DNA from: a virus
Direction: 5' to 3' (one strand)
Length of the DNA stretch: 28,002 nucleotides
Virus record (IMG/VR): IMGVR_UViG_3300035703_004048
Location: 1-28,002 of that record
The notes under the pieces were generated by a model. The model was not told where the DNA came from. It searched no databases and worked only from the letters and a program-made list of their open reading frames with translations. A program made the position numbers and the translations under genes. Of this stretch, positions 1-3,762 are shown piece by piece (position 1 is the first letter of the stretch; each line of letters begins with the position of its first letter).

Positions 1-297
1 TCAAGCCGTGGCGCGCCGGGCCGTTTTCGCGGGTTTTGGCGGTTTCCCGCCGGTTTGCTCCCGCTCCAGGAGCAGGCCGAGAGCGTTCAGCGCGGCCGCC
101 GAGGGCGGGCGGTTGAGCTCCCAGCCCTGGACGGTGCGCGGGGAACAGTCGCAGAGCGCGCCAACGTCGCCCACGGACAGCCCGAGCCGGGCCCGGATCG
201 CCCGGAAACCGTCCGGGTAATCCATGACGTTGCCCGCATCGTCCAGGATGACCGGCACGCCGTAGTTGCTTGCAGGGTGGTGTAGGGTGATTTTCAT
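1..297 (-). CDS. XRE-like helix-turn-helix protein
   Basis: This 98-residue protein has a DNA-binding helix-turn-helix at about residues 30-65 (FRAIRARLGLSVGDVGALCDCSPRTVQGWELNR, quoted in pieces: FRAIRARLGLSVGDVGAL then CDCSPRTVQGWELNR). The motif matches Cro/CI-type repressors in spacing. The tail after residue 80 is Lys/Pro/Arg-rich. I chose the ATG at 297 over an ATG five codons upstream because it overlaps the stop of the upstream gene as ATGA, implying translational coupling. The stop codon is the first base triplet of the window, so the gene is complete. It probably regulates phage genes; target unknown. A role as lysogeny repressor is inference only, since there is no integrase or clear divergent lytic promoter next to it. 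Confidence 0.75.
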   Translation of the reverse strand: MKITLHHPASNYGVPVILDDAGNVMDYPDGFRAIRARLGLSVGDVGALCDCSPRTVQGWELNRPPSAAALNALGLLLEREQTGGKPPKPAKTARRATA

Positions 298-545
298 TTT
301 TCGAGGAACCAATCGGCCGCTTGATAGGCTGGCAGGCCGTCAATTATGTGGTTGCGCAAGGTGTCGATGACCGCATCGACGATTGCCAATCCGTCATCGT
401 GTCCGAAAACCGGAACGCCCAGGTTGTCACAGAGTCGCGCCGCGAGACTTTCTGAAAATTTGGAGGTGCGGCCGTGTGCCGCATGATGACCGAGGCTGTG
501 TGCGGTGATTGCGAAGTGATAGGGGTCTAAAAGTGGTGTGCTCAT
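294..545 (-). CDS. hypothetical protein, 83 aa
   Basis: I do not recognise this protein. It is soluble, with a His-rich stretch near residues 10-25 (HFAITAHSLGHHAAHG) and a helical C-terminal half that looks like a compact alpha-helical domain. It starts at an ATG and ends in an ATGA overlap with the downstream HTH gene, so the two are probably co-translated. It could be a partner of the HTH protein, but only the coupling supports this. No signal peptide or membrane segment is seen. Confidence 0.6.
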   Translation of the reverse strand: MSTPLLDPYHFAITAHSLGHHAAHGRTSKFSESLAARLCDNLGVPVFGHDDGLAIVDAVIDTLRNHIIDGLPAYQAADWFLEK

Positions 546-577
546 GGGATGTTTTTGATGGGCCGGACCGGCTCCCT

Positions 578-604
578 ACTGCCCCAGGGGATTCCGGGGG
601 CAGT
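578..604 (-). other. 9-bp GC-rich inverted repeat between minus-strand genes
   Basis: The arms 578-585 and 597-604 are complementary (ACTGCCCC with GGGGCAGT) around an 11-base loop. This hairpin lies in the 70-base gap between the DUF6573-like gene and the next minus-strand gene. No U-tract follows on either strand, so it is not a standard intrinsic terminator. It may tune readthrough or protect mRNA ends. Confidence 0.4.
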
Positions 605-615
605 GTGGGAACTGG

Positions 616-1041
616 TTAGTCTTCGTTTGGGAGCGTGATTGTGACGACCGGTTCGCCGGAATCTCCGGGGCCGATGTGGAGTGCCAACGTCACGCGGCGC
701 GGACGAACGCCACGCCCTGCCACAGGCACCCGGTAAAGGTCGAAGAGGCGCCGGGGATTCTCGCCCCGCCCACGGGCTGCAAGGCGGGCCATATAGACCA
801 CATCCCACAGGCGCCCCTCTTCGTCCTGGATTGTGTCTTTGCGGCTGTCTGTCTCCTTGTTCCACTCCACACAATCCGCCCACGCGCCGCATGTGATGGC
901 TACGGGGACCGTGAACCCGGCTTCCCGGGCCGTTTCGCTTACGTCTACCAGCACGCCGTCCGCGATGGCCTGGGCGCGACTGTAGCTGTGGATTAGGTCG
1001 GCGTCGGAGAAAATCGGGGTGTGGTCAATTTGTGCGTTCAT
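616..1041 (-). CDS. DUF6573-like hypothetical protein
   Basis: This 141-residue protein resembles the DUF6573 family found in phages, plasmids and integrative elements, by recall of the pattern: a SYSRAQAIADGVLVDVSETA start, a GAWADCVEW segment, DEEGRLWDVVYMARLAA, and a closing ALHIGPGDSGEPVVTITLPNED. The family's function is unknown. An in-frame ATG lies 14 codons upstream at 1083, but its added stretch is only Lys/Thr/Pro. I prefer 1041 because the same 18-bp sequence sits directly upstream of the next gene's ATG as well. Length is near normal for the family, so the gene looks intact. Confidence 0.8.
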   Translation of the reverse strand: MNAQIDHTPIFSDADLIHSYSRAQAIADGVLVDVSETAREAGFTVPVAITCGAWADCVEWNKETDSRKDTIQDEEGRLWDVVYMARLAARGRGENPRRLFDLYRVPVAGRGVRPRRVTLALHIGPGDSGEPVVTITLPNED

Positions 1042-1045
1042 TTGA

Positions 1046-1063
1046 GTTTGCGTTTTTTTGGTT
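1046..1063 (-). promoter_or_regulatory. shared 18-bp leader element, copy 1
   Basis: The plus-strand sequence gtttgcgtttttttggtt lies 4 bases upstream (in minus-strand terms) of the ATG at 1041. An identical copy lies at 1675-1692, 1 base upstream of the ATG at 1673. On the mRNA it reads as an A-rich leader (AACCAAAAAAACGCAAAC). It contains no Shine-Dalgarno and may act as an A-rich ribosome-docking leader or a regulator-binding site. Confidence 0.6.
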
Positions 1064-1112
1064 TTGGTTTTGGGTTTGTGCATTCCCTGGGCGTTGCGCC
1101 TTGGGTTTGCGT

Positions 1113-1152
1113 CCCCCGGTCAGCCGTTACAGCGGCTGGCCGGGGGTTTTTT
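1113..1152 (+). terminator. strong intrinsic terminator on the plus strand
   Basis: Arms 1113-1126 and 1133-1146 pair over 14 positions (CCCCCGG, a G-U pair, then CAGCCG with CGGCTG) around a 6-base loop, followed by six T at 1147-1152. It is a textbook rho-independent terminator for plus-strand transcription, yet no plus-strand gene lies upstream of it. In minus-strand orientation the hairpin is not followed by a T-tract. A smaller imperfect hairpin lies just before it (about 1086-1106). Confidence 0.75.
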
Positions 1153-1155
1153 GTT

Positions 1156-1176
1156 CCCCGGGGATCGAACCCGGGG
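1156..1176 (-). other. tRNA T-arm-like inverted repeat
   Basis: On the minus strand this reads as a 7-bp stem around TTCGATC (CCCCGGG, TTCGATC, CCCGGGG), which matches the invariant T-arm loop pattern of tRNAs (TTCRANY). No acceptor strand, anticodon arm or CCA that would complete a tRNA can be found around it. It could be a tRNA 3'-end remnant, such as a phage attachment core, or a chance palindrome. Confidence 0.35.
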
Positions 1177-1184
1177 CGGGTTGT

Positions 1185-1673
1185 TTATTCCTTGAACAGG
1201 GTGGCTGGGAGTTCCCAACCTTGGTCTCCGTCTGCGAATTCGATTTCCATCCGGGCTGCGTCTAACGCGACCACGCGGCCGTCGACGATGTTGCCGTCGT
1301 CGGTTACGTGTTTGACTGCGTCGCCGATGCGGAATGTCGTCTCGTCGCCGTGATAGTTTAGAGCGACTACTCCTGTGCGTTTGGTGGCGATGTGGGTGAG
1401 CAGCGCGTCGCGGTCAGGGTTGTCGTGCAGCCATTCGCCGAGGTTGTCGGTGATGAATTCCGCAGCGAGGTCGAACTGTGCGTCGTCCCAAGCGTTGCCG
1501 TCGGCCCATTCGTTGAGACTTTCTTTCGTGATGATCATCTCCGCGTCGTCTTCTCGGTCTGACGGGATGAAACTGACGTTCCAGCCATACTCAGGGCTGA
1601 GGGTGATGCACGTCTGGTTTGTGTTTGCGGACGATTCGATGATGCGGACGATTTGGGATTTGAGCGTGTTCAT
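1185..1673 (-). CDS. hypothetical acidic protein, 162 aa
   Basis: I do not recognise this protein. It is acidic and soluble. The N-terminal two thirds mix strands and helices (TLSPEYGWNVSFIPSDRED, then EWADGNAWDDAQFDLAAEFI). The C-terminal 60 residues look like a small beta-barrel or Tudor/KOW-like fold (FRIGDAVKHVTDDGNIVDG, then RVVALDAARMEIEFADGD), the usual look of a ligand-binding SH3-type barrel. It begins right after the 18-bp leader shared with the DUF6573-like gene, so both may be regulated together. Its 211-base upstream region holds a candidate promoter. Confidence 0.7.
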   Translation of the reverse strand: MNTLKSQIVRIIESSANTNQTCITLSPEYGWNVSFIPSDREDDAEMIITKESLNEWADGNAWDDAQFDLAAEFITDNLGEWLHDNPDRDALLTHIATKRTGVVALNYHGDETTFRIGDAVKHVTDDGNIVDGRVVALDAARMEIEFADGDQGWELPATLFKE

Positions 1674-1674
1674 G

Positions 1675-1692
1675 GTTTGCGTTTTTTTGGTT
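1675..1692 (-). promoter_or_regulatory. shared 18-bp leader element, copy 2
   Basis: This is an exact copy of the 18-bp element at 1046-1063, here 1 base upstream of the ATG at 1673. After these 18 bases the two leaders diverge, so the conservation is confined to the start-proximal part. Confidence 0.6.
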
Positions 1693-1775
1693 GGTTTTTT
1701 GTAGGTCGCTTTTGGCTAGTGTCTCCCGCCGGAGCGGAGAGGTTTTGCACAGCGGACTTGCTATCGACATGGCAC

Positions 1776-1803
1776 ACTCTACGCAAAAAGGCGCAACAGG
1801 CAA
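1776..1803 (-). promoter_or_regulatory. candidate sigma70-type promoter
   Basis: On the minus strand, TTGCCT (1803-1798) is followed after 16 bases by TAGAGT (1781-1776). Transcription would start about 95 bases before the ATG at 1673. The rest of the 211-base gap 1674-1884 holds the 18-bp leader and T-rich sequence but no convincing gene. The match to consensus is moderate. Confidence 0.35.
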
Positions 1804-1884
1804 GCGGAATGTTACTTAATTTTGCGCAATGCCCGCGAACGCTGATTGGGGCTTGATTTGCGGGCGATGGGCTCCGGCGCTGCG

Positions 1885-2328
1885 TCAATACAGTAGCCAG
1901 CCGTAGGCCCATTTCACTCCGTCGCGCCACAGTGCGAACACGATGAAGGCCGCCACGGTGATGAGATTCCAAACGCACCCCGTTTTAGCCGTGTGCGGTC
2001 CCTCTTTGTAACTGAGCCATGCAATCGGCGAAAACACCGAGGTAAACGAGAGCAGCCAATAGAGCCAGTGGTGGCTAACCGTTGGGTGGGCGGAAAACCG
2101 GTGGGCTATCGCGCTGCAAAACGCAGCCCATCCGCCCCAAAAGTAGAGTTGCGCACCACCAATGACCAGCGCGGCAGGGACCGACAGCAACGCGAGCAAG
2201 CGCGGGTGATTTTTGGTTGCTGAGGCCAGGAGGGAGAATGGGAACGCGACGACAGCGAGCACGACGCTGAACGCAAAAATGACCAGCCAGTCAGCGACAA
2301 ACAGGATGAGGATGAAAGTCCAAAACAT
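1885..2328 (-). CDS. four-helix inner-membrane protein
   Basis: This 147-residue protein has four predicted membrane segments: FWTFILILFVADWLVIFAF with the adjacent SVVLAVVAFPFSLLA, then LLALLSVPAALVIGGAQLYF, WLYWLLSFTSVFSPIAWL and VWNLITVAAFIVFALW. I see no enzyme motif and cannot assign a function. A GTG 24 codons upstream at 2400 is possible but would add a non-membrane leader and cross the inverted repeat at 2360-2373. Membrane proteins in this position of temperate phages often act in superinfection exclusion, but that is only an analogy here. Confidence 0.65.
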   Translation of the reverse strand: MFWTFILILFVADWLVIFAFSVVLAVVAFPFSLLASATKNHPRLLALLSVPAALVIGGAQLYFWGGWAAFCSAIAHRFSAHPTVSHHWLYWLLSFTSVFSPIAWLSYKEGPHTAKTGCVWNLITVAAFIVFALWRDGVKWAYGWLLY

Positions 2329-2359
2329 AGCGGTAGCGGATTGGGCGGAGTGTCTAACG

Positions 2360-2373
2360 GTGTCAGCCGACAC
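2360..2373. promoter_or_regulatory. operator-like inverted repeat GTGTC-N4-GACAC
   Basis: A perfect 5-bp inverted repeat with a 4-base centre lies between the minus-strand membrane gene and the plus-strand gene at 2452. A second repeat of the same arm/centre layout lies at 2436-2451. These are plausible binding sites for one of the small ribbon-helix-helix proteins nearby. Confidence 0.35.
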
Positions 2374-2435
2374 AGCGTAAACAGCGACAATAAACGACAC
2401 AAACGGTCATTTTTATTGGCCATCGAGTCGCAGAG

Positions 2436-2451
2436 GTGTTCTCCTGAACAC
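2436..2451. promoter_or_regulatory. operator-like inverted repeat GTGTTC-N4-GAACAC
   Basis: A perfect 6-bp inverted repeat with a TCCT centre abuts the ATG at 2452. A protein bound here would block transcription or initiation of the adjacent plus-strand gene, which suggests autoregulation. As RNA it could also fold just in front of the start codon. Confidence 0.4.
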
Positions 2452-2643
2452 ATGCCGCGCAAGTCTGCCCGCATATCCCTGCCCCCTGAATTTGTCGCCG
2501 CGGCTGCCCGCTACGGTATTCACCCGGACGTGCTCGCGCTGCGCGTGCTGGCAGCCTGGTCAGCCGATCCGCCCGCAGAGCTCACAATACGGGCGGCCGT
2601 TTGTGCGCGGCGTCGACGACAAGCTGAGCGATGTCGTAGTTAA
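2452..2643 (+). CDS. small RHH-like DNA-binding protein candidate
   Basis: This 63-residue basic protein begins with MPRKSARISLPPEFVAAAAR and continues with GIHPDVLALRVLAAWSA, a beta-strand followed by two helices as in Arc/MetJ ribbon-helix-helix proteins. The C-terminal 20 residues are Arg/Ala-rich. Those residues overlap by 62 bases the end of the convergent gene on the minus strand. An ATG 37 codons upstream exists but reads through operator-like repeats and gives no recognisable sequence. Because of the antisense overlap the exact C-terminus is less certain than the N-terminal domain. Confidence 0.5.
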   Translation: MPRKSARISLPPEFVAAAARYGIHPDVLALRVLAAWSADPPAELTIRAAVCARRRRQAERCRS

Positions 2644-2904: not shown

Positions 2905-3084
2905 ATGAGCAACACCAATTGCCGTCCCATGACGATCCGCCTGGTTCCGGAGCAATACGACAGACTCCGCGCAGAGTCGGCCCGCACCGGGCTCTCGGTG
3001 CAGGACATAATCCGCCTCTGCATTGCGCGCTCGATTGACTCGTGGCACGCAGCCCTGGTCCCGACACAGGAGGTCGCGCAATGA
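2905..3084 (+). CDS. ribbon-helix-helix-like protein, 59 aa
   Basis: This small protein (MSNTNCRPMTIRLVPEQYDR, then LRAESARTGLSVQDIIRLCI, then ARSIDSWHAALVPTQEVAQ) has the RHH layout: a short strand TIRLVP, helix EQYDRLRAESARTG and helix SVQDIIRLCIARSID. It would dimerise and bind DNA. It is first in a run of overlapping genes. Its last codons carry a perfect AGGAGGT ribosome site for the next gene, and the stop overlaps that gene as ATGA. No Shine-Dalgarno precedes its own ATG, which fits a leaderless mRNA from the adjacent promoter. Confidence 0.7.
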   Translation: MSNTNCRPMTIRLVPEQYDRLRAESARTGLSVQDIIRLCIARSIDSWHAALVPTQEVAQ

Positions 3085-3263
3085 GCGGCGGGGATATTTT
3101 TCTGGCGGTGTTCGTCCTAGGGGCGATCACGTCGCTGCTGCGCTGGCGTCTGGACGTGGCGTGGCGCGAGGGCAACCGGCAGGGGTTGGCAACGGGTTAC
3201 CTCGACGGGCGACGCGCAGAGCGCGCCGACCAGGAGCGCATCCGGCAGGAGGTGGCGAGGTGA
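3081..3263 (+). CDS. small single-span membrane protein
   Basis: This 60-residue protein has one N-terminal membrane helix (IFLAVFVLGAITSLL, about residues 5-20). A charged Arg/Glu-rich C-terminal helix follows (REGNRQGLATGYLDGRRAER, then ADQERIRQEVAR). The start is fixed by AGGAGGT six bases upstream and the ATGA overlap with the previous gene. It looks like many phage small bitopic proteins of unknown role. The 57-aa protein at 9166 has the same layout, with a GxxxG-like patch after the membrane helix. Confidence 0.65.
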   Translation: MSGGDIFLAVFVLGAITSLLRWRLDVAWREGNRQGLATGYLDGRRAERADQERIRQEVAR

Positions 3264-3529: not shown

Positions 3530-3762
3530 TGTTTTTGGTTTTTTCGTCCTACGGGAGCGACACCGGGTTTTTCGTGGGGTCGTTTTTTGACCGGGCCGAC
3601 GCGTTGACAGTGGCCCAGAGTCGGAGAGCCAATGGTGAGGCCGTGTCTCTGCGCTCCCTGGAGGCAATGGACGCCCGGCAGCGGCTCTCGACCATGGCCG
3701 GAGCGGCCCGCTCATTTTTTGCGCCCATGGCATCTCTCCCAGGTGAGGAGGTGCCGCTATGA
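3526..3762 (+). CDS. hypothetical protein, paralogue of the previous gene
   Basis: This 78-residue protein of unknown function is the second member of the tandem pair; the shared signature is AQSRRANGEAVSLRSLEAM. AGGAGGT lies six bases before the ATG, and the start overlaps the upstream stop as ATGATG. Seven of eight Phe codons are TTT, giving T-runs inside a GC-rich gene. The coupled start and equal spacing suggest both paralogues are made in fixed ratio and may form a heteromer, but that is inference. Confidence 0.6.
   Translation: MMFLVFSSYGSDTGFFVGSFFDRADALTVAQSRRANGEAVSLRSLEAMDARQRLSTMAGAARSFFAPMASLPGEEVPL

Follow-up and report, generated by a model that had tools for sequence, protein, structure and literature searches.

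What does an identical run of 18 nucleotides do directly before two neighbouring genes of a virus, and is it an element in its own right? The window, i.e. the whole 28,002-nt (28-kb) stretch of virus DNA analysed here, encodes a DnaB-like helicase, an SSB, a major head protein and a terminase, which is assigned as TerL by 24-29% identity to phage records, some of them annotated as large terminase. The two genes belong to a minus-strand arm with the following features.

1..297, minus strand: HTH gene, the conserved arm end, which in relatives adjoins attP/integrase
294..545, minus strand: gene G, 83 aa, the next cassette; 17 of its last 22 leader bases are A or C
616..1041, minus strand: gene A, 141 aa, DUF6573 (PF20213, E 1e-27)
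1185..1673, minus strand: gene B, 162 aa, present in G005, G006 and G007; G002 and G003 have the same site without B
1046..1063, minus strand: 18-mer copy 2, before gene A; exact before gene C (G002) and gene D (G003)
1675..1692, minus strand: 18-mer copy 1, before gene B; exact in G006 and G007, an indel variant in G005

Results

The 18-mer occurs twice, beyond chance

The minus-strand 18-mer, AACCAAAAAAACGCAAAC, is present in exact copies at 1046-1063 and 1675-1692, both on the minus strand, with gaps of 4 nt to the ATG of gene A (1041-1039) and 1 nt to that of gene B (1673-1671). The window holds no further copy on either strand with up to three mismatches, which bears out the sequence-only reading that the repeat lies directly before the starts at 1041 and 1673 and nowhere else. 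Two matches compare with 0.01 expected, and none of 100 whole-window shuffles reached two. As this null is blind to the A/C richness of both leaders, we added a dinucleotide-keeping shuffle of the leaders only, in which a shared string of at least 18 nt arose in 0 of 5000 (60 nt), 4 of 5000 (40 nt) and 5 of 5000 (30 nt) trials. Chance in low-complexity sequence is thus ruled out as the source of the repeat. A recent duplication extending into the genes, raised in the sequence-only reading as a way for its proposal to fail, is excluded as well: the exact identity of the copies stops at the 18-mer, save for a common ATGAAC gene start. Nor is the leader absent from all relatives, the second such way, as G005, G006 and G007 carry it.

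Outside the window the exact 18-mer was found in nine stretches of viral contigs, four of this phage group and five with unrelated flanks, and in 27 stretches of public genomes, judged from short flanks. Seven of these 27 (L012, L013, L016, L018, L020, L025, L028) look by eye like the start of what we take to be rpmH (ribosomal protein L34) and would, on that visual impression, be coincidences of coding sequence.

Relatives carry the same arm with different genes

G002 and G003 are long phages with a terminase 99% identical to that of the window, and G001 and G004 are shorter pieces with the same terminase. The arm-bearing contigs found were G005, G006 and G007; the last is a near copy of G006 and was excluded from the pairwise tables. 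With up to three mismatches the 18-mer is matched in 13 of 16 records searched, G001, G004 and G008 being without a match. Five of 24 stretches from a further sequence search belong to this phage group. In the phage collection, window positions 1-2500 had no DNA match, and neither protein A nor protein B was matched there.

Starting at the promoter side, the genes run B-A-G-HTH in the window, B-A-F-H-HTH-attP-int in G005, B-C-A-F-HTH-attP-int in G006, C-HTH-attP-int in G002 and D-E-H-HTH-attP-int in G003. Differently lettered arm genes show no similarity to one another by blastp at 1e-3. Gene C is DUF932, and gene B has no Pfam match at E 0.05. A repressor-like HTH gene lies upstream on the same strand in G002 and G007, and an exact-string search did not find it in G006.

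Distant relatives of gene A occur in G008 (54% identical) and G009 (46%). The G008 gene lacks the 18-mer and has instead an SD-like (Shine-Dalgarno-like) leader (GGGAGGGGATGGGACA-ATG), and the single three-mismatch match in G009 does not lie at a gene start as judged by eye. Many DUF6573 homologues in Opitutaceae genomes (L122-L129, L132-L134, L136) are preceded by a different leader that they have in common (GGTCACG...ACGCCCCACGGGCCGAACGGCATGAAACC-ATG or similar) and in which we see by eye no SD close to the start. This suggests from sequence comparison that the family may travel with a conserved leader elsewhere too.

The DUF932 (L079:6206-7084) and DUF6573 (window 616-1041) genes follow the same junction, and both families are without an assigned function. 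DUF932 is familiar from plasmid leading regions; that context would hint that an arm carrying DUF932/DUF6573 could be an anti-defence arm.

The junction is conserved while the genes around it change

The 18-mer is the 3' end of an intergenic junction, made up of a GC-rich hairpin, a leader nearly without G or T and the ATG, and not a free-standing motif. The following elements delimit it.

1042..1154, minus strand: junction before gene A (hairpin hp2 plus A/C-rich leader), 91-98% identical among five phages with three unrelated downstream genes
1693..1702, minus strand: ACAAAAAACC, direct repeat that borders the gene B cassette upstream
1145..1154, minus strand: ACAAAAAACC, direct repeat that borders the gene B cassette downstream

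Over about 113 nt the same junction precedes the unrelated genes A (DUF6573), C (DUF932) and D in related phages. In arm coordinates, the window and G002 share three blocks, 2331-2508, 3047-3165 and 3582-3633 (94-96%), with unrelated genes between them, and the window shares the same three with G003. The junction block itself covers 3047-3165 with G002 (95.8%) and 3047-3158 with G003 (95.5%), in both cases up to the ATG (3160), from which the genes are unrelated. The block containing the hairpin hp3 begins at the gene A stop codon and is 100% identical between the window and G003 over 59 nt.

Comparison of the identities supports this picture. The 113-nt junction is 91-98% identical (10 pairs, five phages) versus 77-86% for gene A (three pairs); gene B reaches 84% (full length, one pair), gene C 91% (one pair) and the HTH gene 78-95%. 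The junction is more identical than the HTH gene in 9 of 10 pairs, in one by a hair, and hp3 (88-100%) is not above the genes in every pair. Thus the junction stays nearly constant while the flanking genes change.

These borders bear on the view that the junctions are purely mosaic boundaries, i.e. short homology blocks spread by recombination, whose A/C leader has no special role in translation. Shared blocks start at or near stop codons and finish at or near start codons, and the gene B cassette sits between the 10-nt ACAAAAAACC repeats, which are reduced to a single copy in G002 and G003, both without B. Recombination at boundary sequences is also one of two models in the cited text of PMC3233612. 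We nevertheless regard a pure boundary as unlikely, since homology needs no particular base composition, yet the differing leaders described below keep theirs, also where no hairpin precedes them.

Gene B is itself a mosaic: its bases 301-489 match G005 at 188 of 189 positions and its bases 1-60 match G006 at 60 of 60. The G006 copy of the gene is cut to 98 aa (window 1185-1673 compared with L081 538-1035 and L040 2726-3022).

The 18-mer is improbable as coding sequence

1042..1083, minus strand: stretch by which gene A may be extended in frame by 14 aa, from an ATG at 1083

Gene A has an in-frame ATG at 1083, so the 18-mer could be translated there (MHKPKTKTKKTQTQ-M...). Were this the true start, the 18-mer before A would be coding and would give the swapped proteins a shared lysine-rich tag (MHKPKTKTKKTQTQ). 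An upstream ATG is in frame in four of six hp2-type junctions (window A, G005 A, G002 C, G006 C), and in G005 the frame leading into gene B has no stop and contains a TTG, which leaves room for translation there. Before gene D of G003, however, the upstream ATG is out of frame, gene A of G006 has none, and a stop codon closes the frame before gene B of both the window and G006; the window copy is untranslatable, with an in-frame TAG before it and no start codon between. The differences between copies moreover alter residues (P/T). A shared tag is therefore the least credible of the readings considered here, and we give it hardly any weight.

Junction leaders are rich in A and C and devoid of SD motifs, and those of A and B have little structure

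An SD-like motif stands before 3 of 26 genes in the window, where the control region scores 6 of 26. The count for E. coli is 35 of 46, with 2 of 46 in the control, and for the Opitutaceae genome G021 it is 2 of 28 (control 4 of 28). With a mechanical choice of genes the counts are 0 of 4 for the window (control 3), 0 of 6 for parts of G002 and G003 (control 1) and 5 of 6 for E. coli (control 0). Starts without SD are thus usual in the phage. The sequence-only reading was correct that both 18-mer leaders lack an SD, but the same is true of most window genes, and its suggestion that this is specific to the operon has to be rejected. Gene starts for the 26-gene count and for the 25-gene structure ranking were chosen by hand, and the SSB start in the former (9799) lies six nt before the ATG used in the latter (9805).

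In that ranking no window gene has a leader with less structure than B and A: the unpaired fraction of positions -30..-1 is 0.95 for gene B and 0.90 for gene A, ranks 1 and 2 of 25. Junction leaders were also compared in two hand-chosen sets, one of 22 trimmed at the hairpin and one of 24 left untrimmed; starts that overlap the upstream stop (the H genes and most HTH genes) have no leader and were excluded. In positions -18..-4 none of the 24 contains an SD-like motif, and A or C makes up 17-21 of the last 22 nt in every one. The trimmed set consists of 53% A, 37% C, 6% G and 4% T. A/C-rich leaders are also found without a preceding hairpin, and it is this constancy of composition in differing leaders that a pure boundary leaves unexplained.

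With mechanically chosen genes, an A+C content of at least 0.8 is seen before 18 of 143 first ATGs versus 1 of 558 internal ATGs at 12 phage loci, a count that pools overlapping relatives. The window alone gives 1 of 25 versus 0 of 94, which is not significant. The corresponding numbers are 3 of 160 versus 6 of 830 in G021 and 0 of 47 versus 2 of 378 in E. coli. As the excess is present in the phage loci and none is seen in the one Opitutaceae genome sampled, the signature belongs to the phages.

The behaviour of the exact 18-mer speaks to a further proposal of the sequence-only reading, a regulator or RNA target, in which a protein of the phage or its host, or else a small RNA, would bind the 18-mer and co-regulate the downstream genes. 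Its recurrence exceeds what leader composition predicts, and its 3' part, ACGCAAA, is invariant in six aligned hp2 junctions. Against this, the 18-mer varies in relatives by substitution and indel (copy 2 has two mismatches before A of G005, one before C of G006 and two before A of G006), and other A/C strings replace it at other junctions of the same arm. The exact sequence drifts and the A/C make-up is kept, so that sequence-specific control has little support and appears improbable. A ribosome-binding mode, also put forward there, is still the best functional reading, although it extends beyond this 18-mer: further phages have (CA)n, (CCAA)n and other A/C leaders before different genes, one of them RecT-like.

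Hairpins and promoter-like elements of the arm

1721..1741, minus strand: hp1, hairpin in the gene B leader; five phages are 93-98% identical over the surrounding 81-nt leader block
1156..1176, minus strand: hpT, hairpin of 7 bp behind the stop codon of gene B, tRNA T-arm-like by eye
1113..1146, minus strand: hp2, 15-pair hairpin; terminator-like with TTTTTTG on the plus strand, without a following T-run on the minus strand
568..615, minus strand: hp3, extended hairpin directly after the gene A stop codon, also in phages without other blastn similarity
1776..1803, minus strand: weak promoter-like pair TTGCCT-16-TAGAGT, seen by eye and missed by the promoter scan

The terminator-like reading of hp2 runs opposite to the arm genes, and the minus-strand A-run beside it is kept in 6 of 6 aligned copies; it is possible that hp2 stops antisense transcription. 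A search for known RNA families gave NsiR1 on the plus strand over hp2 at 26.8 against a gathering score of 39 bits, which we take as a chance hairpin match. Across 12 sequences the hp3 stem has 18 consensus pairs, of which 14 never vary, one is changed on both sides and one is broken in 2 of 12. With pairs nearly invariant, one double change and a covariation term of -0.32, RNA folding is not proven, and the invariance would fit an RNA structure, a protein site and recent spread equally well.

The minus-strand sequence of hpT is CCCCGGGTTCGATCCCCGGGG, and its likeness to a tRNA T-arm was judged by eye; ARAGORN reports no tRNA in the window. The consensus scan found no sigma-70 promoter.

hp3 is shared with phages that have little else in common with this group

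A search with the hp3 core returned 12 stretches, of which L155 was dropped as its match lies outside any hp3 element; from the 17 stretches of a search with an 18-nt hp3 pattern, six (L163-L168) were dropped since they have the pattern only and the rest of the hairpin is missing. The core search identified hp3 (~50 nt) in L150, L152, L153, L154 and L156. By blastn at E 1e-5 the window shares nothing but hp3 with the first four (52-53 nt each) and two pieces with L156, both on hp3. These five phages have thousands of bases in common with one another, and L154 shares one further stretch, of 654 nt, with G002.

The leaders that follow hp3 in the five phages are A/C-rich, e.g. GGACGAGCACACACACACACC-ATG, some with CA repeats. 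The gene before hp3 is the same in L150 and L152; after hp3 the two phages differ, and further along they are alike again. In L152 the gene directly after hp3 resembles gene E of G003, with 56% identity over 61 aa. Leaders of the (CCAA)n type precede a RecT-like gene (L150:8350, phrog_561, 4e-36) and an exonuclease-like gene (L154:9788, phrog_10477, 4e-12). The RecT-like gene belongs to this other phage group, and no recombinase was detected among 24 window proteins scanned with PHROGs.

An Opitutaceae genome serves as analogue of the host

TerL relatives occur in 4 of 200 genomes of the Opitutaceae family of G015, the best pieces being 36-41% identical, and DUF6573 relatives in 38 of 252 genomes of that family. 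The integrase has distant relatives only (25-35%), in 41 of 252 family genomes. The junction DNA, searched against the 252 genomes, matched 10 of them and only over 19-34 nt, with E values no better than 1.3e-4; we do not count these as relatives.

The attP region between the HTH gene and the integrase (L079, L080, L081, L040, L151) contains the 5' part of a sequence that, by eye, is tRNA-Thr-like and has a TGT anticodon. With up to two mismatches this 45-nt stretch is present in 0 of 252 family genomes and 0 of 288 phylum genomes around the Opitutaceae MAG, and hp3, with up to three mismatches, in 0 of 252 family genomes. As both are missing from the family genomes searched, the SD-poor Opitutaceae genome G021 is an analogue and not a proven host. 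Some Verrucomicrobia are SD-scarce according to the cited part of PMC10783764, which is relevant only if the phage host is among them.

Discussion

The reading that we favour, with a probability of roughly two in three, is that the minus-strand arm of this temperate phage is a row of swappable small-gene cassettes, whose constant junctions provide both an unstructured, SD-independent landing site for ribosomes and homology for exchange. Most junctions consist of a GC-rich hairpin at or just after the upstream stop, a leader of 15-70 nt rich in A/C and poor in G/T, and the ATG. In an SD-poor host the A/C leader may act as the landing site through its single-strandedness and A/ACA content instead of rRNA pairing, and it probably allows initiation in the absence of the customary landing signal. 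The hairpin could shield the leader from structure forming further upstream; it may also mark the end of an RNA or act as a block to antisense transcription. With such a constant junction an incoming cassette would be translated at once, and the same sequence would offer homology for the next exchange.

The two halves of this proposal have different sources. That the junctions guide recombination we infer from the border pattern. The role of the leaders as ribosome recruiters is drawn from work in E. coli, where A-rich sequence upstream of the AUG promotes SD-independent initiation (PMC7043885), and from Salmonella, where ACA motifs raise translation (PMC3879156), each as given in the cited excerpts. 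Replacing A by C abolished the reporters tested in the cited portion of PMC7043885, so C-rich (CA)n leaders may act differently.

If the cassette reading is true, the phage can swap accessory genes, each of which would still be translated at once without Shine-Dalgarno pairing. The locus would be a concrete case where a single sequence may serve as module border, expression signal and recombination homology, and its natural A/C leaders, down to CA repeats, are material for testing which property recruits ribosomes without SD.

More speculatively, and in our estimate doubtful, the hairpin and A/C leader could form a dedicated cassette joint, i.e. a portable, self-sufficient element for expression and exchange by which unrelated phages of one host assemble their accessory arms through annealing recombination and SD-free initiation. 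Such a joint would be a phage counterpart of integron cassettes.

Comparison with known systems

In integrons a palindromic element, attC, stands behind each small gene cassette and has the 3' core site GTTRRRY. The arm resembles this arrangement in having a palindromic element behind a small gene cassette. An attC site is ruled out, as the conserved 3' end of hp3 is GGGAGCCG in 12 aligned copies. A text search of the literature, covering titles and abstract openings, returned no description of a junction of this kind.

The start-associated sequence (SAS) of cluster K mycobacteriophages is the nearest precedent, by its position as well as by the different gene families that it serves. As described in the cited text (PMC3203893), this 13-bp sequence, GGGATAGGAGCCC, contains an SD core, occurs in 11-19 copies per genome and is found a few nt ahead of the start codons of non-structural genes, which often belong to different families. 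For about half of the copies, inverted repeats lie directly upstream; the authors doubt that these are RNA hairpins (PMC3203893). A role of SAS in translation initiation is a proposal that still needs experiment, according to the cited part of PMC12699233. Like SAS, the 18-mer stands close to the ATGs (4 and 1 nt) in one orientation, within an arm ending in an HTH gene (attP/integrase in relatives), and its junction precedes different gene families (A, C and D). Unlike SAS, the leader AACCAAAAAAACGCAAAC is A/C-rich, has no SD core, exists in 2-3 close copies and does not match the GGGATAGGAGCCC consensus within two deviations. Cluster K phages also have ESAS, 17-bp imperfect inverted repeats upstream of SAS, where this arm has the inverted repeats hp1, hp2 and hp3 ahead of its leaders, with a different sequence and length. 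As consensus and SD content differ, the leader is not a member of the SAS.

With the A-rich signals for SD-independent initiation the leaders share all three properties compared, i.e. enrichment of A upstream of the AUG, no SD and low structure. The A-rich and ACA enhancers in the cited parts of PMC7043885 and PMC3879156 were tested singly, in E. coli and Salmonella, whereas here the leader lies within a conserved junction shared by unrelated genes, and the leaders include CA repeats.

The junctions also resemble the boundary sequences of mosaic phages in the cited text of PMC3233612, being short, conserved and intergenic at sites where gene content changes. They differ from the sequences described there in that the boundary also contains a translation start region and a strong hairpin, and in that the hp3 junction spans phages without other blastn similarity.
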